Shown in pieces: positions 29,505 through 39,025 of a stretch of DNA of 64,000 bases. A program made the translations under genes and the position numbers. A model generated the notes under the pieces. It was not told where the DNA came from. It saw only the letters and a list, made by a program, of their open reading frames with translations, and made no database searches. This DNA is from Candidatus Phaeomarinobacter ectocarpi (GTDB lineage Bacteria; Pseudomonadota; Alphaproteobacteria; CGMCC-115125): assembly GCF_000689395.1 (NCBI RefSeq), contig NZ_HG966617.1:2950721-3014720 (forward strand), read 5' to 3'. How positions within the stretch are numbered: position 1 is the first letter of the stretch; each line of letters starts with the position of its first letter.

Positions 29505-29639
29505 GCGAAAATGATCCGTAGCGGTCCAAATACAGTGCGCGGATAGCCTCTGGAAACACACAATCGCGTCACTTACCTGACACGTGGTTGACTTACGCCT
29601 TTGAACTTGGCGGAGTTGGCGCTTCGCAGTTTCCATAAG

Positions 29640-31016
29640 ATGCCGAAAGACGCCTCAATGCCTTCTTCTGTCAGCCAAGCGACCGCCTCTGATAATATTG
29701 CGTCCGCCGGCGCCCAACGCCTGTCGCGCGAGACGCTCTTGGCTCACTTTGAGCGGGTGCGCGCTGCAACGGAAAGCCTGGCTGCGCCGCTGACGCCTGA
29801 AGACCAGATGCTGCAGTCGATGGAAGACGCCAGCCCGGCCCGATGGCACCGCGCGCACACCACATGGTTCTTTGAGACTTTTGTCTTGAAGCCGCATGAC
29901 CCGACCTATCAACCGGTCGATCCGATCTACGACTATCTGTTCAATTCCTACTATCAGTCCGTCGGCCCGCAATACCCCCGCCCCAACCGTGGGCTCGTCT
30001 CGCGCCCCAGCGTGGCGGAAGTGGGAACATACCGCAGCCAGGTCGATGCAGCTCTCCTGAGCTTTGCCCAATCTACCGACGACGACATTTGGCAAACCAT
30101 TGCGCCGTTGATTGAGCTGGGCCTGCATCACGAACAGCAACACCAGGAACTGCTCGTCACAGACCTGAAACACGCTCTGTCCTTCAACCCGATGTGGCCT
30201 GCGGTTTATCCGGCACCTCAAAACCAAAGCGATGCAGCACCCGCCCTTGGATGGGTCGACTTTCCCGGTGGCATCACCATGTGTGGCCACTCCGGTGATC
30301 TGGCCAATGACGGGTTTGCCTATGATTGCGAAGGACCGCGCCACCAGGTCCTGCTGCGCGACTACGCGCTCGCAACCCGTCCCACCACAAATGCCGAGTA
30401 TCTCGAATTTGTTCGTGACGGCGGATACACAGACCCACGCTGGTGGCACGCTGAAGGATGGGACCGGGCCCAGGCAGATCAGTGGCAGGCTCCGCTTTAC
30501 TGGATCCAGGACAACACGGCATCTGACACATGGACAACCTATACGCTGCATGGCCGTGTCGACGTGAACCCCCATGAGCCCGTTTGCCACATCTCATTCT
30601 TTGAAGCCGCCGCCTATGCTGCATGGCGCAGCGAACAGGGCTGCGACGTCCGCCTGCCAACCGAGTTTGAGCTTGAACACGCAGCCGCAGGCCTTGAGCC
30701 GGCCGGCAACTTTGCCGGCCCACAGCCAGGACAGTCCGCATTGCATCCCAAGTCAGCAGACGGTGAGGCACAGCTCAAGCAGGTATTCGGCGACGTATGG
30801 GAATGGACGCAGAGCGCATATACGCCTTACCCCGGATTTAAGCCTGTTGCAGGCGCCATTGGTGAATACAATGGCAAGTTCATGGCCAATCAGATGGTCT
30901 TGCGCGGCGGCAGCGTCGCCACTGCTGAGAACCACATGCGCGCGACCTACCGAAATTTCTTTCCTGCCCACGCGCGATGGCAGTTTTCAGGATTGCGCCT
31001 TGCACGCGACACCTGA
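29640..31016 (+). CDS. egtB: Ergothioneine synthase EgtB (iron-dependent sulfoxide synthase)
   Basis: A protein of about 458 residues that couples hercynine to a thiol donor (gamma-glutamylcysteine or cysteine) using Fe(II) and O2. An N-terminal DinB-like domain provides the three iron histidines, H70 (RWHRAHTT), H164 and H168 (LGLHHEQQHQELL). A C-terminal formylglycine-generating-enzyme-type domain follows (VFGDVWEWTQSAYTPYPGF, VLRGGSVAT, RNFFPAHARWQFSGLRLA). The start is uncertain: ATG 29640 and ATG 29658 are both possible, and the upstream TTG 29601 is less likely. Paired with egtD. Confidence 0.92.
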   Translation: MPKDASMPSSVSQATASDNIASAGAQRLSRETLLAHFERVRAATESLAAPLTPEDQMLQSMEDASPARWHRAHTTWFFETFVLKPHDPTYQPVDPIYDYLFNSYYQSVGPQYPRPNRGLVSRPSVAEVGTYRSQVDAALLSFAQSTDDDIWQTIAPLIELGLHHEQQHQELLVTDLKHALSFNPMWPAVYPAPQNQSDAAPALGWVDFPGGITMCGHSGDLANDGFAYDCEGPRHQVLLRDYALATRPTTNAEYLEFVRDGGYTDPRWWHAEGWDRAQADQWQAPLYWIQDNTASDTWTTYTLHGRVDVNPHEPVCHISFFEAAAYAAWRSEQGCDVRLPTEFELEHAAAGLEPAGNFAGPQPGQSALHPKSADGEAQLKQVFGDVWEWTQSAYTPYPGFKPVAGAIGEYNGKFMANQMVLRGGSVATAENHMRATYRNFFPAHARWQFSGLRLARDT

Positions 31017-31112
31017 CATTTCCAGATCATAAATCCCGCCCCACATCACAAAGCCTGCGAAGACGCCTGAACGGCCAATCCACAGCCCGACCAGTATCGG
31101 GAAGGAAACAAA

Positions 31113-32126
31113 ATGACCGCCCACGACACGACAACACTTGATCGCCCCGCAACGGACTCCTCCGCGCTCGCTTTCTTTGTAGACGAAAAACCTGCGCTGG
31201 CGACATTTCTTGATGATGCCATGACAGGCCTTGCCGCCTCTCCAAAACGGATTGCGCCCAAATACTTTTACGACGAACGCGGCTCCGAGCTGTTCGACAA
31301 GATATGTCAGACCCCGGAATATTATCCAACCCGCACAGAACTCGGCCTGCTCGAACAGCACGGTGCCGATATCGCCGAGGCCGTCGGCCCCGATTGTCTG
31401 GTGGTTGAATATGGCGCGGGCTCAAGCCTCAAGATACGCCGCCTGCTCGACGCCCTCGACAAGCCGGCAGGATACGTAGCGGTCGACATCAGTCGAGATT
31501 ACCTGCATGGCCAGATGAGCGGTCTGGCCGGAGACATGCCCGAGATTGCCGTCGGTGCCATTTGTGCCGATTTCACGCAGGGTTTCGACCTACCTGCTGA
31601 GACCCGTGATCTGGGTACCCGCAAGCTCGGCTTTCTGCCCGGCTCGACTATTGGCAATTTTGTGCCCGCCGAGGCCGAGGCCCTTTTGGCCCGCAGCACC
31701 AAACTGCTTGGCAAAGGCGGCCAGTTTCTCATTGGTGTGGACCTGAAAAAGCCGAAACACATTCTGGATGCCGCCTATGACGATGGCGCCGGTGTTACGG
31801 CTGCGTTCAATCTGAACCTGCTCAAACGGATGCAGTCAGAGCTGGGTGCCGAACTCAACGAAAGCGGCTTTTCCCACGTGGCCTTCTACAATGGCGATCA
31901 GGGCCGTGTTGAAATGCACCTGGAAGCCAAAGGCCCGCAGACAATTCGTCTGGAAGGCCAAACCTTCGATTTTGACGATGGTGAGCGCATTCACACTGAA
32001 AGCTCTTACAAATATGAGCCTCAGGAGTTCGCAGATATGGCCAAAAAGGCCGGATTTGTGCCGCGCGGCCTGTGGACGGACGCGGATGGGCTGTTCTCGC
32101 TCCACCTGCTGGAAGTCGCCGGTTAA
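31113..32126 (+). CDS. egtD: L-histidine N-alpha-methyltransferase EgtD
   Basis: A 337-residue SAM-dependent enzyme that trimethylates histidine to hercynine, the substrate of EgtB. Family motifs include PKYFYDERGSELFDKI, TRTELGLL, the SAM loop VVEYGAGSSLKIRRLL, GYVAVDIS and FLPGSTIGNF. The ATG at 31113 has GGAAGG 5-7 bp upstream. With egtB it forms a two-gene ergothioneine module. EgtA, EgtC and the lyase EgtE are not in the window. Confidence 0.95.
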   Translation: MTAHDTTTLDRPATDSSALAFFVDEKPALATFLDDAMTGLAASPKRIAPKYFYDERGSELFDKICQTPEYYPTRTELGLLEQHGADIAEAVGPDCLVVEYGAGSSLKIRRLLDALDKPAGYVAVDISRDYLHGQMSGLAGDMPEIAVGAICADFTQGFDLPAETRDLGTRKLGFLPGSTIGNFVPAEAEALLARSTKLLGKGGQFLIGVDLKKPKHILDAAYDDGAGVTAAFNLNLLKRMQSELGAELNESGFSHVAFYNGDQGRVEMHLEAKGPQTIRLEGQTFDFDDGERIHTESSYKYEPQEFADMAKKAGFVPRGLWTDADGLFSLHLLEVAG

Positions 32127-32298: not shown

Positions 32299-32724
32299 CT
32301 GAGTATCGACTATGCTGGCCAAGAGGCCAAAGCGGCGGAAGAAACATCTTTCGCAGGCACACAGTCAGAAGACCACAACCAGTCCGACCGGCTTCGCGCA
32401 GCAGCGCTGGCGTGTCTTGAAGACACCAAGGCCGAAGACGTTGTCACCATCGAACTCGCAGGCAAATCATCTATGGCCGACTGCATGGTAATCGCCAGCG
32501 GCCGGTCACAGCGCCATGTGGGATCCGTTGCTGACTATCTGGTTGAGGCCCTGAAGAAAGCAGGCTGCAAGGCCCCGCGCGTTGAAGGCATGACCCATGC
32601 TGATTGGGTCCTGATCGACGCCGGTGACATTGTAATCCATGTTTTCCGTCCAGAAGTGCGTGATTTCTACAATCTTGAGCGCCTCTGGTCCTCTGACATG
32701 CCCGAAGACCAGCTGGCCAACTAG
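32299..32724 (+). CDS. rsfS: Ribosomal silencing factor RsfS, apparently with a CTG start
   Basis: A 141-residue RsfS/Iojap protein that binds L14 of the 50S subunit and blocks subunit joining. The conserved core begins LRAAALACLEDTKAEDVV, then IELAGKSSMADCMVIASGRS and HADWVLIDAGDIVIHVF. No ATG, GTG or TTG occurs in frame between the upstream stop (32293) and the core; the first ATG (32473) lies inside it and would delete the conserved N-terminus. The only plausible initiator is CTG at 32299, with GTGGAG seven bases upstream. An assembly error or frameshift is the alternative. Confidence 0.85.
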   Translation: MSIDYAGQEAKAAEETSFAGTQSEDHNQSDRLRAAALACLEDTKAEDVVTIELAGKSSMADCMVIASGRSQRHVGSVADYLVEALKKAGCKAPRVEGMTHADWVLIDAGDIVIHVFRPEVRDFYNLERLWSSDMPEDQLAN

Positions 32725-32776: not shown

Positions 32777-33241
32777 ATGCGCATCACCGTCTGCGCCATC
32801 GGCCGCATGCGTGACAAGAATGAGCGCGCTCTTGCCGACGATTACCTCTCCCGGGCACAAGCTCTGGGCCGCAATCTGGGCATCACGGACATCAAGACAA
32901 TCGAGCTGGATGCAAAGCCAACCAGGGAACTGGAAGGCGAAGCACTGCTGGCTGCCCTGCCTGACAACGCGTTCATCATTGCCATGGACGAAACCGGCAG
33001 ACAGCGGCCAAGTCGCGATTTGGCAAATTGGCTGGATAGCCTCAAGGATGGCACCCACCGTGACATCGCGTTTGTGATCGGTGGGGCGGACGGCCACAGT
33101 GCGGCTGTCAAAGCCAAGGCGAACGCCATGCTGTCTCTGGGCGCCATGACTTGGCCGCATATGCTGGCGAGAATCATGCTGCTTGAGCAGGTCTACCGGG
33201 CCATATCCATTCTGGCTCGCCACCCTTATCATCGCGACTAG
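32777..33241 (+). CDS. rlmH: 23S rRNA pseudouridine(1915) N3-methyltransferase RlmH
   Basis: A 154-residue SPOUT methyltransferase that modifies helix 69 of 23S rRNA. The C-terminal SAM knot is clear: VIGGADGHSAAV, LSLGAMTWPHMLARIMLLEQ and the terminal RHPYHRD. The ATG at 32777 gives the family length and the conserved MRITVCAIGRM start. It directly follows rsfS, the usual partner. Confidence 0.96.
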   Translation: MRITVCAIGRMRDKNERALADDYLSRAQALGRNLGITDIKTIELDAKPTRELEGEALLAALPDNAFIIAMDETGRQRPSRDLANWLDSLKDGTHRDIAFVIGGADGHSAAVKAKANAMLSLGAMTWPHMLARIMLLEQVYRAISILARHPYHRD

Positions 33242-33309: not shown

Positions 33310-34833
33310 ATGAGACTTTTCGGCCGACCAAAAACATCTGGCGACGCGCCTGCGCGCCCCATCGTCGTGGCCATGCTCCAGGGCTGGGGCGCGGTCGCAG
33401 ACAATCCGCGTGCGCCGATTTTCAGCACCCGCACGCCCGCCTTCAACCGGCTGGCCCAGCGCGCCGCTGCAACATCCATAGTTCCCGCCACCACGCCCAC
33501 AAGCATGAGCAGCGCCCTTGCAGCCATTGCCGAGGGCAACAACGCGATTGCCCCCAGCTCACCTCTGGAGGCAGTCCTTCGATCGCCCGGTGGTCTTGCG
33601 GAACACACAGGGTTTCAGTCTTTCGTCAAAGACCTGACGCGTGTAGGCGGCGATTGCCACCTTCTGTGCTGCCTGACGTCATCGGGCATCGAAGGTCTCA
33701 CAGCTCACGCTGCAAAGATCGCAGCCAATCTCAGTCACGCGGGCATTCGCGTGTGGGTCCACGCCATTCTTGATGGCCGGGATACCGCACCTGATGCTGC
33801 GCTGGGCGCTTTGCACGAGTTTCACGAAGATGTAGCAGGCGTTGATACGGTGCGCTTTGCAACCGTGTCCGGCCGCGCCTTCGCCCTCGACGAAACAGCG
33901 GACGCCAAGGCACTGGCCCTTGTGCGTGATGCCATTGTGGATGCCAGCCCGCAGGAACGCAGCGGCCTTGCACAATACATCGATGCCCAAAACCAGGCAG
34001 GCGTGAATGATGGCGACATCAAGCCTGCTGCGGACCAGACCTATCCAGGCATGCGCAGCGATGACGCATTGCTGATACTTCATCCGCAAGCAGATGGTTT
34101 TTCAGACCTGCTGAAAGTTCTGGTGCCCGGCGACACATTGGATGTGCCGTCAGCGCGTCCTGCTACGCTTTCTGCTTGCAGGCGCATGATCGGCTGGCCC
34201 CAGCCTGGAACGTCAAAGCCAGGTACGTCACCTGTCGCGCAGGCAAGCCAGCCCCTGTCGTTGTTTCAACCATCCCATCCGCGCCTTCCTGACATTGTGC
34301 GCAGCGCAGATTTGAGCCTGATGATGGCAGCCCCACGCCATGAGCACACATTGTGGGCGGCATCCGTTGAAGGATGCACCCCCAATGCCAGCAAGACACT
34401 GGTGGCATCGAACGCACTTGAAGCTGCAGATGCTGCAGTGCGTGCCATCAAGGACGACAAGACCGACGTGATTTTTGCATTGCTTGCCGGCGTGCCAGCG
34501 GCAGTGCGTATGCCGGGCAGTCAGACACTGGATTCAGCCGCCCGCCGCATCATCGAGCAGCAGGACAAAGGGTTGGGCCGGATCGCTGCCATTATTGAGC
34601 GGCGCGGCGGCACGCTGTTGGCCATCGGGACGGACACCAGCCTCGGCCTTGCAACGTCCTTACCCTGCCTCATCCATGGCGGCCCCTGCACAAGCGACAC
34701 ACAGCTCAATGCAGGGACACTGGCTGACATTGCACCGACCATACTGGATCTGGCCGGCGCGCAGCCGCACGACCAATTGTCGGGGACATCGCTTCTGGCC
34801 CATGAGGAGGTCATTGATGCGGCAGCATCGTGA
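33310..34833 (+). CDS. Degenerate GpmI-like protein (phosphoglycerate mutase pseudoenzyme)
   Basis: A 507-residue protein in the usual gpmI position (rlmH-gpmI-envC-ctpA). Homology to cofactor-independent phosphoglycerate mutase shows in MLQGWG, VWVHAILDGRDTAP (148-161), RFATVSGR (182-189) and TLADIAPTILDLAG. The catalytic set is mostly lost: the metal-binding Asp of LDGWG is Gln24, the nucleophilic Ser segment (QMGNSEVGH) is absent, DMVGH has become AAVRM (397-401), and TADHGN reads GTDTSL (440-445). The NFRxDR arginines are also missing. Length and open frame are intact, so it is probably expressed without mutase activity. Its function is unknown. The envC gene overlaps its end. Confidence 0.8.
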   Translation: MRLFGRPKTSGDAPARPIVVAMLQGWGAVADNPRAPIFSTRTPAFNRLAQRAAATSIVPATTPTSMSSALAAIAEGNNAIAPSSPLEAVLRSPGGLAEHTGFQSFVKDLTRVGGDCHLLCCLTSSGIEGLTAHAAKIAANLSHAGIRVWVHAILDGRDTAPDAALGALHEFHEDVAGVDTVRFATVSGRAFALDETADAKALALVRDAIVDASPQERSGLAQYIDAQNQAGVNDGDIKPAADQTYPGMRSDDALLILHPQADGFSDLLKVLVPGDTLDVPSARPATLSACRRMIGWPQPGTSKPGTSPVAQASQPLSLFQPSHPRLPDIVRSADLSLMMAAPRHEHTLWAASVEGCTPNASKTLVASNALEAADAAVRAIKDDKTDVIFALLAGVPAAVRMPGSQTLDSAARRIIEQQDKGLGRIAAIIERRGGTLLAIGTDTSLGLATSLPCLIHGGPCTSDTQLNAGTLADIAPTILDLAGAQPHDQLSGTSLLAHEEVIDAAAS

Positions 34834-36073
34834 CATTTCATTTACAGCAACACTGGCGGTCGCACTGATCGGCGCGTTCGCGGTCGCGCTGCCTGCCGGA
34901 CATGCGCAGGAAACACGCATAGACCCCGCTCAGGCTGAAGAACTCATGGAAGTCGAGCGCGCCCTGGGCGGTGCGTCATCGTCTCGCGATGCAGCGGAGG
35001 CCAAGGCCAAGGCTGCCGCACGCGCTGTTTTGAGATTGCGCGAGGAACTGGTAGCTGCAGGGGACCGGGCAGCGGCACTGGAAAGCGCCGTCAGCGAAAA
35101 CCAGTCCCATATCGAAGGTCTAGTTGCCGCCCGGGCGGTGAGCGAAGCATTGCTGGCAACGCGGCGGGAGCAGCTGGTTGAAAGCCTTGCAGCCCTCCAG
35201 CGGCTCGACCTGGAGCCACCACCCGCCTTGCTGGTGAAACCGCAGGATGCCCTGGCGGCAGCCCGAGGCGCCATGCTGCTGGGCACCCTCGTCCCTGAAC
35301 TCAAGGACGTCGCCGATGACCTGTCCAGGCAGATCAAGAGTCTTGAGGACCTGACCCGCACCATCACCAGCCAGCGCGAACAGCTGACGCAGGATGTTGC
35401 GGCACTGGAAGTAGAGCAGCGTCGGATTGATGAATTGCTGGTCGCCAAGCGCGAGGAAGAACTCATCAGTTCCACTGACGCCAAACGCGCCGCGGACAAA
35501 TATGCGGAACTGGCAGGCCGCGCCCGCTCCCTGCGCGATTTGCTGGGCGGTCTGGAGCAGGATGTGCCGACATTTGCGGCTTTGCGCCCCGGGGATGATG
35601 CGGAAACAGCGCCGCCAGCCTTCTCCACCCTGCGCGGCACCCTGCGAAGCCCGGCAACAGGCCGGATTGTCCAACGTTTTGGGACCGATGACGGCTCAGG
35701 CAGCCCGTCTCAGGGGGTCAGCCTGCGTGCCCGGGCCGGGGGGCAGGTCGTAAGCCCTGCGGATGCCGAAATCGTGTTTGCCGGGCCATTTCGCAGTTAT
35801 GGCAACGTGTTGATAATCACCCCGGGCGACAATTACCTTATTGTTATCGCTGGACTGGCCGAGATTTACGCAGGGCCAGGCCAGCAGTTGCTTGCCGGAG
35901 AGCCCATTGGGCGCCTTCCGACGGGCGCAACTGCGGCAAATGGTGGCCAAAATGGGCGTCCGGAGGCCGGTAGAGGTGCAGGTAATACACCTGTGCTCTA
36001 TATAGAGATGAGAAAAGACGGGAAACCGGTTGATCCGGCCCCGTGGATCAGGTTTCAGAGCCGCCCGGCTTAG
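34817..36073 (+). CDS. EnvC-type murein hydrolase activator (degenerate LytM)
   Basis: A 418-residue exported protein: signal peptide (about residues 1-30, ending near GHAQ), a long coiled coil (about 35-260) and a C-terminal LytM/M23 domain (about 280-410). The zinc ligands of active M23 peptidases (HxxxD, HxH) are missing: QGVSLRARAG and VLYIEMRKDG replace them, as in E. coli EnvC, which activates amidases rather than cutting peptidoglycan itself. ATG 34817 is fixed by AGGAGG six bases upstream and overlaps the preceding gene by 17 bp. Likely role: daughter-cell separation at the septum. Confidence 0.88.
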   Translation: MRQHRDISFTATLAVALIGAFAVALPAGHAQETRIDPAQAEELMEVERALGGASSSRDAAEAKAKAAARAVLRLREELVAAGDRAAALESAVSENQSHIEGLVAARAVSEALLATRREQLVESLAALQRLDLEPPPALLVKPQDALAAARGAMLLGTLVPELKDVADDLSRQIKSLEDLTRTITSQREQLTQDVAALEVEQRRIDELLVAKREEELISSTDAKRAADKYAELAGRARSLRDLLGGLEQDVPTFAALRPGDDAETAPPAFSTLRGTLRSPATGRIVQRFGTDDGSGSPSQGVSLRARAGGQVVSPADAEIVFAGPFRSYGNVLIITPGDNYLIVIAGLAEIYAGPGQQLLAGEPIGRLPTGATAANGGQNGRPEAGRGAGNTPVLYIEMRKDGKPVDPAPWIRFQSRPA

Positions 36074-36192: not shown

Positions 36193-37548
36193 ATGATGCA
36201 CCGTACGGTGATTGCAGGGGCCGCAGGCCTGGTGAGCCTGGCTCTTGTAGGGATTTTTGCCCTTGATGCGGGCCCGACCCGTGGTGGCGCAGAAGCCGCA
36301 AGTTCTGAAACATACCGGCAGCTTAACCTGTTTGGCGATGTGTTCGAGCGCGTCCGCGCGGACTACGTGGAAGAGCCGGCTGATGCTGACCTGATCGATA
36401 ACGCGATCAACGGCATGCTGACCTCACTCGACCCTCATTCAAGCTACCTCAACCCCAAGACGTTCCGCGACATGCAGGTGCAGACCCGCGGCGAATTCGG
36501 CGGACTTGGCATTGAAGTCACCATGGAAGAGGGCTTCGTCAAAGTCGTGGCCCCGATTGACGACACCCCAGCCGACAAGGCAGGCCTGCGCGCCAACGAC
36601 CTGATCACCCATCTGGATGGCGATCCGGTTCTTGGCCTTACCCTTTCAGCAGCTGTTGAAAAGATGCGTGGACCAGTCAACGCACCCATCACTGTGACGA
36701 TCGTCCGTCAGGGCCGCAATGAAGCGTTTGATGTAACCGTCGTGCGCGACATCATTCGCATCAAGTCCGTGCGCTACAAGCGCGATGAAGGCGTCGGCTA
36801 CATCCGCGTCACAACATTCAACGAGCAGACATCAGACGGCGTGCGTGCCGCTCTGCGCGAAATGTCGGACATGCCTGGCTTCGTGGTTGACCTGCGCAAC
36901 AACCCCGGCGGTCTGCTGGATCAGGCCATCGAGGTCTCAGACATCTTCCTTGAAAAGGGCGAAGTCGTTTCAACCCGTGGCCGCTACCCTGAGGACACCC
37001 AGCGCTACAACTCACGGCCTGGCGATCTTGCCAATGGCAAGCAGGTGGTTGTGCTCGTGAATGGCGGATCCGCTTCAGCGTCGGAAATTGTCGCTGGTGC
37101 CCTGCAGGATCATGAGCGTGCACTGGTGCTTGGCACGCGCTCTTTCGGCAAGGGATCAGTCCAGACCATCATTCCGCTTGGTTCCGATGGCGCCATTCGC
37201 CTGACAACAGCCCGCTACTACACACCTGCGGGCCGGTCGATCCAGGCCAAGGGCATTACACCGGACATCAAGGTCGAGCAGAACGTGCCGGAAGACGAAG
37301 ACATCCGCACAACCGGTGAAGCCGGACTGGCGGGCCATCTGGCTGCTGAAGACGAGGACGAAAAGGGTGGGTCATCCGCCTACGTGCCTCGCGATGCCAA
37401 AGATGACCTTCAGCTCATCTATGCCCGTGACCTGATCCTCGGCAAGCGGACATATGATCCGGCAAATCCAACACCAACCGCTGATGCAAGCGCAGCGGCA
37501 GGTGCTGGAAGCGAAGGCGGCGCCGCTATGGCCCCGATTCCCAACTAA
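36193..37548 (+). CDS. ctpA: Carboxy-terminal processing protease (S41 family)
   Basis: A 451-residue periplasmic serine protease. It has an N-terminal signal or anchor (residues 1-27), a PDZ domain (about 95-180) and the S41 protease core with the catalytic serine in SASASE (293-298) and lysine K320 in RSFGKGS. A flexible C-terminal tail rich in Ala, Thr and Pro follows. ATG 36193 has AAGGG upstream. The gene lies behind envC, a frequent pairing because CtpA controls peptidoglycan hydrolases. It is followed by two strong hairpins. Confidence 0.95.
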   Translation: MMHRTVIAGAAGLVSLALVGIFALDAGPTRGGAEAASSETYRQLNLFGDVFERVRADYVEEPADADLIDNAINGMLTSLDPHSSYLNPKTFRDMQVQTRGEFGGLGIEVTMEEGFVKVVAPIDDTPADKAGLRANDLITHLDGDPVLGLTLSAAVEKMRGPVNAPITVTIVRQGRNEAFDVTVVRDIIRIKSVRYKRDEGVGYIRVTTFNEQTSDGVRAALREMSDMPGFVVDLRNNPGGLLDQAIEVSDIFLEKGEVVSTRGRYPEDTQRYNSRPGDLANGKQVVVLVNGGSASASEIVAGALQDHERALVLGTRSFGKGSVQTIIPLGSDGAIRLTTARYYTPAGRSIQAKGITPDIKVEQNVPEDEDIRTTGEAGLAGHLAAEDEDEKGGSSAYVPRDAKDDLQLIYARDLILGKRTYDPANPTPTADASAAAGAGSEGGAAMAPIPN

Positions 37549-37649: not shown

Positions 37650-37777
37650 TTCGTTTGAGCCATCCTGCACCGCGTTAAGCGTGACTGGACGCAGGTCGCG
37701 CAAGCCCTTATGCCAGCACAGATAAACCGCTATCGTGAGCGCTCTTGAATTCATATCGGTGCACCCACCTGCCTGCC

Positions 37778-39025
37778 ATGACCGCCATCCCGACAGATAC
37801 AGACCCTCAGGACACGCCTGATACCGGCCCGACACGGATCAGCCCGCTGGCTATTGCCGTTTTCGCAGTCGCGTTGCTGATCGGTGGATTGCTCATCTGG
37901 CTGTCCTTTGCAGGCGATGATGGACGGCCCGCCGAGCACGTTTTGCAGCTCTCCACCGATGAAAACGCCGGCACAGAGACGCTGATCAGCGGCGAGACCG
38001 TTTCCATTCCCCCGCAGCCGCAGGTTCTGGATGGCGATGAAACGCCCGGCGCTGGAGACGAGACGGACACACCAACGCAGGACGAGAACGCACTGCCCGC
38101 CACGGACGGTAACCTTCAGCAGATCGGATCGCTGCCGCTGCTGGCCGCAGGCGCGTCCCTGGAAGGCGCCCCGATAGAAGGCCTGTATGAAGAAACCACG
38201 GCTGGGCTTCTTCCCATTGTGGCGGCCGATGGCCGCCGCCCTGTCGCCAGCTACGGCCGCCCCTTTGAGCCACCGCTTACAGGCGACGATGCGCGCCCGC
38301 GCGTGGCCATCATGATCATGGGCTTTGGTCTCAATCGCACATTTGCTGAACGCGCCCTGGAGCAATTGCCCGCTGACGTCTCTTTGGCATTCACACCCTA
38401 TTCCAGTGAACTGCAAAACCAGATCAATGCCGCACGAGCCGACGGCCATGAGGTCGCTCTTGAGCTTCCAATGGAGCCGTTTGACTATCCCGATAATGAT
38501 CCGGGTCCCTACACATTGCTGACCAACCTGCCCGCCGAAGCAAACCGCAAGCGCCTCGAATGGCTGCTGGCGCGAACAACGGGCTACTTCGCCACCGTCA
38601 ATCGACAGGGCGGACGGTTCCTGTCGGAATCTGAGTCACTTGCACCCATCATGACTGCTTTGATGGAACGCGGCGTAGGCTTCGTCGATACCGGCGATGG
38701 CGCACGCAACGCGACCGAAGATGCAGTGCCGGCAGGCTTCAACTGGGCCATCGGCAATCGGGTTGTGGATGCCGCCAAATCCCCACGCCAGATCGACAAG
38801 GCACTGGCTGACCTGGAGGACGTTGCCCGCCAGAACGGCATGGCCGTCGGCATTGGAACAGCCCTTCCCATTACCGTTGAACGCGTTGCTCAATGGGCTG
38901 AAAGCCTTGCGGACAAAGGCATTGATCTCGTTCCGGTTTCTGCGGCACTTGCCCATGGCATGTCCGGTCCGGCTGGCAGTGAGGCAACAAGCCAGGCAGA
39001 CGCTTCCGGCGATCTCAACGAATAG
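37778..39025 (+). CDS. Divergent polysaccharide deacetylase family protein (YibQ-like)
   Basis: A 415-residue protein with one N-terminal membrane segment (about residues 19-40), a low-complexity acidic linker (40-165) and a C-terminal divergent polysaccharide-deacetylase fold: VAIMIMGFGLN, LPADVSLAFTPYS, HEVALELPMEPFDYP, GVGFVDTGDG and IGIGTALP. The family is thought to act on envelope glycans, but the standard metal site is not conserved. ATG 37778 is preferred to the TTG at 37745. It is next to rppH, 18 bp downstream, an arrangement common in alphaproteobacteria. Confidence 0.85.
   Translation: MTAIPTDTDPQDTPDTGPTRISPLAIAVFAVALLIGGLLIWLSFAGDDGRPAEHVLQLSTDENAGTETLISGETVSIPPQPQVLDGDETPGAGDETDTPTQDENALPATDGNLQQIGSLPLLAAGASLEGAPIEGLYEETTAGLLPIVAADGRRPVASYGRPFEPPLTGDDARPRVAIMIMGFGLNRTFAERALEQLPADVSLAFTPYSSELQNQINAARADGHEVALELPMEPFDYPDNDPGPYTLLTNLPAEANRKRLEWLLARTTGYFATVNRQGGRFLSESESLAPIMTALMERGVGFVDTGDGARNATEDAVPAGFNWAIGNRVVDAAKSPRQIDKALADLEDVARQNGMAVGIGTALPITVERVAQWAESLADKGIDLVPVSAALAHGMSGPAGSEATSQADASGDLNE

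Follow-up and report, generated by a model that had tools for sequence, protein, structure and literature searches.

The gene at the gpmI position of the window (the whole 64,000 nucleotide stretch analysed here, from Candidatus Phaeomarinobacter ectocarpi) very probably codes for an old, vertically inherited pseudoenzyme derived from the phosphoglycerate mutase GpmI (iPGM). Its catalytic residues appear to have been lost a single time, its reaction is now, by gene content, covered by GpmA, and it has been retained under purifying selection, very probably for a non-catalytic purpose.

The gpmI locus

The reading frame is uninterrupted and starts with ATG (Table 1). Homology to iPGM/GpmI spans both domains of the protein: an N-terminal part of the phosphatase domain is followed by the transferase domain (approximately residues 85-300) and by the C-terminal part of the phosphatase domain. 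The Pfam domains iPGM_N and Metalloenzyme are matched with 78 and 27.8 bits, respectively, and the score against NCBIfam model TIGR01307 is 84.8 bits, below the curated equivalog cut-off of 330.65 bits.

In nearly all of the 30 loci compared, the genes are arranged as rlmH-gpmI-envC-ctpA. The extended order proA-nadD-rlmH-gpmI-envC-ctpA-deacetylase-Nudix is identical around dead and intact copies of GpmI, and gene order is conserved in all genomes of the clade that still carry the dead gene. The original prediction had described an intact, full-length gene for 507 aa in this locus, with the structural motifs LDGRDTAP and FATVSGR retained, and it holds on each of these points.

Two features upstream of gpmI are recorded here. 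EgtB- and EgtD-like genes (positions 29601-32126, plus strand) lie between nadD and rlmH in the genus of the window and in some Parvibaculaceae (G068, G097); in the loci compared, they were not found at this position in Parvibaculum or in G012. Upstream of rlmH, an RsfS-like frame (32332-32724, plus strand) is readable well ahead of its first ATG, GTG or TTG codon (32473). The N-terminal part that is usually present, LEDTKAEDVVTIELAGKSSMADCM, is encoded in the same frame but lacks a standard start codon, and translation may begin at a rare one such as CTG.

Table 1. Coordinates of the dead gpmI gene, its neighbours and the codons discussed in the text (positions in the window).
Feature	Position	Strand	Evidence
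Catalytically dead GpmI (iPGM) homologue, 507 aa	33310..34833	+	Pfam, NCBIfam, residue alignment, AlphaFold
rlmH, conserved upstream neighbour	32777..33241	+	Pfam SPOUT_MTase 153 bits; synteny
envC-type M23 protein; start overlaps end of dead gpmI by 17 nt	34817..36073	+	Pfam M23, synteny
ctpA-type S41 protease with PDZ domain	36193..37548	+	Pfam, synteny
Divergent polysaccharide deacetylase (YibQ type)	37745..39025	+	Pfam PF04748 178 bits
Q24 codon, at position of metal ligand D12	33379..33381	+	Alignment
Site of missing nucleophile segment GQMGNSEVGH (Ser62), ~aa 64-77	33499..33540	+	Alignment
E128 in place of substrate His123	33691..33693	+	Alignment
R157-D158, retained R153/D154 pair	33778..33783	+	Alignment; D154 in every dead-clade member
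R189, retained R185, in every dead-clade member	33874..33876	+	Alignment
HPQADG replacing NFRADR (R261, R264 lost)	34081..34098	+	Alignment
Region corresponding to DMVGH (D403, H407 lost)	34486..34521	+	Alignment
GTDTSL replacing TADHGN; D444 -> Thr, position 445 = Asp	34627..34644	+	Aligned through Parvibaculum

Loss of catalytic, metal and substrate residues

Sixteen positions were scored, with motifs used to place them in the numbering of the Bacillus stearothermophilus enzyme. The numbering and the roles of the residues, including those that bind substrate, are what we take them to be in structures of the 1EJJ type. The metal triads of iPGM and its phosphoserine mechanism have been described (PMC5382265).

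In the residue alignment, 13 of the 16 positions are lost in the window protein. None of the six metal ligands (D12, D403, H407, D444, H445, H462) is retained, and the nucleophile Ser62 is absent together with the whole GNSEVGH segment. Five of the eight substrate residues (H123, R191, R261, R264, K336) are lost, so that R153, D154 and R185 are the only scored positions to persist. Also lost are the Glu immediately before K336 (labelled E334) and the HTAHT motif.

These results agree with most of what had been read from the letters alone: glutamine replaces the first metal-binding Asp, the QMGNSEVGH segment is missing, the arginines of NFRxDR are gone and no Asp/His pair aligns with DMVGH. The reading of TADHGN as GTDTSL was correct in that the motif and its His are lost, but the Asp, which had been considered a possible remaining ligand, is not D444. 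When aligned through the Parvibaculum sequence GTYGKAE, position 444 is Thr and the Asp takes the place of the former His at position 445, which leaves this motif with no metal ligand.

The C-terminal positions of the window protein are aligned with some uncertainty, as are residues 295-360, but none of the alternative alignments that were tried for metal ligands elsewhere in the protein restores them. Eight His, Asp or Cys residues are conserved in the phosphatase part of the four proteins from the genus, and none of these aligns with a metal ligand. Assignment to ApgM, phosphopentomutase or sulfatases, further metal-dependent enzymes of the alkaline phosphatase superfamily, was rejected, as no ligand of the two-metal site is kept and the best structural matches are to iPGM.

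Predicted structure

The AlphaFold model of the window protein has a mean pLDDT of 72, with residues 295-360 poorly predicted; that of the Parvibaculum copy reaches 89. As had been proposed, the model was compared with the 1EJJ-type enzyme, which it matches with a Z score of 33.4 over 459 residues; its best matches are iPGM structures. The Parvibaculum model has a TM score of 0.90 to iPGM. Both models are nearest to ligand-bound entries (1ejj, 1o98, 5vpu), which may reflect a bias of the predictor. By prediction, then, the dead protein retains the two-domain iPGM fold, and the combination of lost catalytic residues with a fold that is predicted to be kept is that of a conserved pseudoenzyme.

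Distribution of dead copies

A search of 59 relatives returned dead copies in three other genomes of the genus, with 94, 75 and 62% identity to the window protein, and all four genomes of the genus carry the dead copy in the same locus. The nearest sequence from outside the genus, in G012, is dead as well. The order to which G012 belongs was then searched (40 genomes, all from one family, the Parvibaculaceae). A match was obtained in 32 genomes, and in all 30 that were assessed the copy is dead and in the same locus. These include a genome matching Parvibaculum lavamentivorans DS-1 (G070).

Altogether 182 homologues were scored. Intact enzymes (132 sequences) have 15-16 of the 16 residues and dead copies have 2-7; the range between is occupied solely by fragments at contig ends. 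As the homologues thus fall into two distinct groups, intact and dead, the dead state cannot be attributed to chance. Among the scored homologues, dead copies are confined to the genus of the window and the Parvibaculaceae. The original prediction had named intact close relatives, next to a randomly decaying copy, as the alternative to be considered; the copies assessed in the genus and in the Parvibaculaceae are all dead and dN/dS is low.

D154 and R185 are the sole positions retained in every dead copy. Parvibaculaceae copies are less degraded, having kept D12, which is lost in the genus of the window, as well as the length of the TADHGN loop region. Three of them were scored against TIGR01307 and reach 300 to 325 bits (cut-off 330.65 bits). 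The copy from genus g58 (G068) has kept H123 and H407, has Thr in place of S62 and, with 7 of 16 residues, ranks with the least degraded copies in the dead clade. An apparent duplication of gpmI in G088 was dismissed, as it consists of two contigs of one MAG.

In one genus of the Parvibaculaceae search (g57, genome G060, contig C3, 270000-288000) the dead gpmI has been deleted: rlmH is directly followed by envC, and ctpA and the Nudix gene are kept. The role of dead GpmI is thus dispensable in this genus. The deacetylase downstream of ctpA is also missing from this locus, with a second paralogue remaining elsewhere. As a single case, this joint loss is only a lead.

Origin of the dead clade

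In a tree of GpmI proteins the dead copies are grouped with full support (100/100). The stem branches are long, however (1.48 and 3.11 changes per site), which makes this tree suspect when taken alone, and a tree was therefore computed from seven flanking genes (ProA, NadD, RlmH, EnvC, CtpA, deacetylase, Nudix). It joins the genus of the window with the Parvibaculaceae (SH-aLRT 93; 96/92 in another run). Long-branch attraction as the cause of the GpmI grouping was rejected, as the flanking genes, which lack this acceleration, group identically. In addition, 15 derived residues (e.g. D251, G129, R432) occur in both dead groups and are rarely seen in intact enzymes. These data support the view that the catalytic residues were lost once, in the common ancestor of the genus and the Parvibaculaceae, and that the dead gene was inherited vertically.

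Replacement by GpmA

The original prediction had raised the matter of a second intact gpmI or a gpmA in the genome. No intact gpmI is present: searches of the closed genome with iPGM_N and Metalloenzyme returned no second iPGM or metalloenzyme-type mutase besides the window gene. However, a short-form GpmA is encoded, as is enolase. GpmA (TIGR01258) scores above the cut-off in all four genomes of the genus and in 37 of the 40 Parvibaculaceae genomes, and it is matched in every one of the 27 good ones. By contrast, it was found in none of the 17 genomes with residue-checked intact GpmI. Two genomes without GpmI have GpmA, and one MAG (G253, 8% contamination) matches both. A Parvibaculum MAG with 6% listed contamination carries a full-length GpmA (G082, contig C131, 14655-15383) besides the short form.

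Gene content thus shows a mutase step that is now, as judged from sequence, covered by the unrelated short GpmA. P. lavamentivorans has been counted as having both iPGM and dPGM, based on TBLASTN hits, and its dPGM lacks the oligomerisation segment (Foster et al. 2010, PMC2964296). The iPGM of this species is very probably dead. GpmA is manganese-independent and helps another bacterium under manganese starvation (PMC6684088); we conjecture that manganese starvation may have driven the swap from GpmI to GpmA.

Purifying selection and a shift of constraint

Within the genus, dN/dS of gpmI is 0.048 (G002), 0.089 (G003) and 0.231 (G001), and that of envC in the same genomes is 0.051, 0.087 and 0.174, respectively; for the two distant pairs dS is near saturation and the dN/dS values are rough. 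In 14 pairs from Parvibaculaceae, dN/dS of gpmI ranges from 0.03 to 0.20, close to three pairs of intact enzymes (0.11 to 0.28). Across 18 pairs, dead gpmI shows 0.03 to 0.23, with dS up to about 2, and full-length copies from 34 genomes contain no internal stop. Decaying pseudogenes would be expected to have a dN/dS near 1 and frame breaks among relatives, neither of which was found. Instead, purifying selection is combined with long-term retention in the clade, as in conserved pseudoenzymes. Reading the gene as a pseudoenzyme and not as a decaying gene is thus upheld by the comparison among relatives with the degenerate copy that had been proposed for it, by the intact frames and by conservation across two orders.

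Constraint is not evenly distributed. The part of the protein that now changes slowest is the transferase domain (69% identity and dN/dS 0.12 between G000 and G001), and the C-terminal phosphatase part changes fastest (56% and 0.29). Among intact enzymes, the single pair compared shows slightly better conservation of the C-terminal phosphatase part (57 vs 52%). In the dead clade, constraint has moved to the transferase domain.

Alternative explanations

A gene that is decaying but not yet broken, with residues lost at random and the frame open by chance, might be suspected from the long stem branches in the GpmI tree, from an evolutionary rate above that of most neighbours and from the clean loss of gpmI in genus g57. 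With the low dN/dS in all 18 pairs, frames free of internal stops, and the same kind of losses and common derived residues extending through two orders, this explanation has next to no chance of being correct. It is also highly improbable that the frame is kept as a DNA or RNA element that couples translation into envC or carries a promoter for envC-ctpA. The start of envC does lie within or beside the end of gpmI in many genomes, and the original prediction had taken the envC ribosome site in the gpmI end as evidence against decay, but intact relatives have the same overlap. We thus regard the overlap as ordinary and discarded a special coupling of the dead gene to envC. In addition, selection acts at the amino acid level, and G060 does without gpmI between rlmH and envC. 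An enzyme re-specialised around another active site, probably in the transferase domain, and leaving the old metals unused could account for newly conserved residues throughout the clade (e.g. D251 beside the old D252, R249, E170, K381, K420, R432). We consider it very unlikely, as the protein has neither the nucleophile nor any of the six Asp/His metal ligands, the conserved His, Asp and Cys residues of the phosphatase part do not align with the ligands, and within the alkaline phosphatase superfamily no enzyme is known to us that works without the two-metal/nucleophile site.

The original prediction had tied a new role to the neighbouring cell-wall genes envC and ctpA. A regulator or structural partner of the envelope proteins (EnvC, CtpA, deacetylase) would be consistent with the gene order being kept wherever the clade retains gpmI, and with the locus of G060 having lost gpmI and the deacetylase downstream of ctpA. 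However, the same order surrounds active GpmI and was present before the loss, so that the gene order is inherited and does not support such a link. G060 has deleted gpmI and kept rlmH, envC and ctpA; the joint loss with the deacetylase is a single event, and in G042 the deacetylase is absent from the locus while GpmI is intact. Furthermore, EnvC- and CtpA-type proteins work in the periplasm, whereas dead GpmI has no evident export signal. The envelope connection is therefore unlikely.

Proposed role of the dead protein

We return to the reading as a conserved pseudoenzyme. After a single loss of the GpmI catalytic residues, placed in the ancestor of the genus and the Parvibaculaceae, the protein has kept its chromosomal place and, by prediction, its two-domain fold, and has been under purifying selection. 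The acquisition of GpmA would have made the chemistry of GpmI redundant, and the protein would have been retained for something that does not need catalysis. As something keeps the dead protein under selection, it has very probably acquired a new, non-catalytic role.

Given a pseudoenzyme, the likeliest role, with somewhat less than an even chance of being right, is that the transferase domain binds a ligand or another protein in the cytoplasm. This is suggested by the transferase domain being the most constrained part and containing D154 and R185, one half of the former pocket, with the metal-binding phosphatase domain changing fastest; D154 and R185 may also be kept for structure only. More doubtful is a sensor for phosphoglycerate-type metabolites or a protein clamp. 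The two-domain hinge of iPGM would close on a ligand via the D154/R185 pocket and signal carbon flux to a partner without chemistry. A protein of this kind would, if real, be the first regulatory pseudoenzyme described that derives from iPGM, kept through two bacterial orders.

Comparison with known systems

Non-homologous replacement of core glycolytic enzymes is well known, with the usual assumption that the displaced enzyme disappears. The case described here is a clear natural experiment in which such an enzyme remained at its original locus, appears to have lost its chemistry once, and was then held under strong selection while two orders diverged. Such a history suggests that the non-catalytic function of a glycolytic enzyme can be strong enough to outlive catalysis. 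As Parvibaculum is culturable, the hidden role is open to direct testing.

The window protein shares whole-length homology, the predicted fold and the locus with GpmI/GpmM/iPGM (TIGR01307; 1ejj, 1o98, 5vpu), but differs in lacking most of the scored residues, in the deletion of the nucleophile segment and in a score far below the equivalog cut-off. The Parvibaculum 'iPGM' (P. lavamentivorans; PMC2964296) belongs to the same dead clade and occupies the same locus, but is less degraded. The annotation is hereby corrected for this species, to which two phosphoglycerate mutases have been attributed: judged by its residues, its iPGM is almost certainly inactive. The short monomer-type GpmA (TIGR01258), which appears to cover the former GpmI reaction, is from an unrelated protein family. 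In the literature searched (open-access papers), no description of a pseudo-iPGM or pseudo-GpmI was found; YejM was considered as a precedent among pseudoenzymes and discarded, since it is reported to be a metalloenzyme. The closest general parallel is with pseudoenzymes and pseudophosphatases (PMC5106787, PMC10211241), which likewise have an enzyme fold without the catalytic residues and are under selection.
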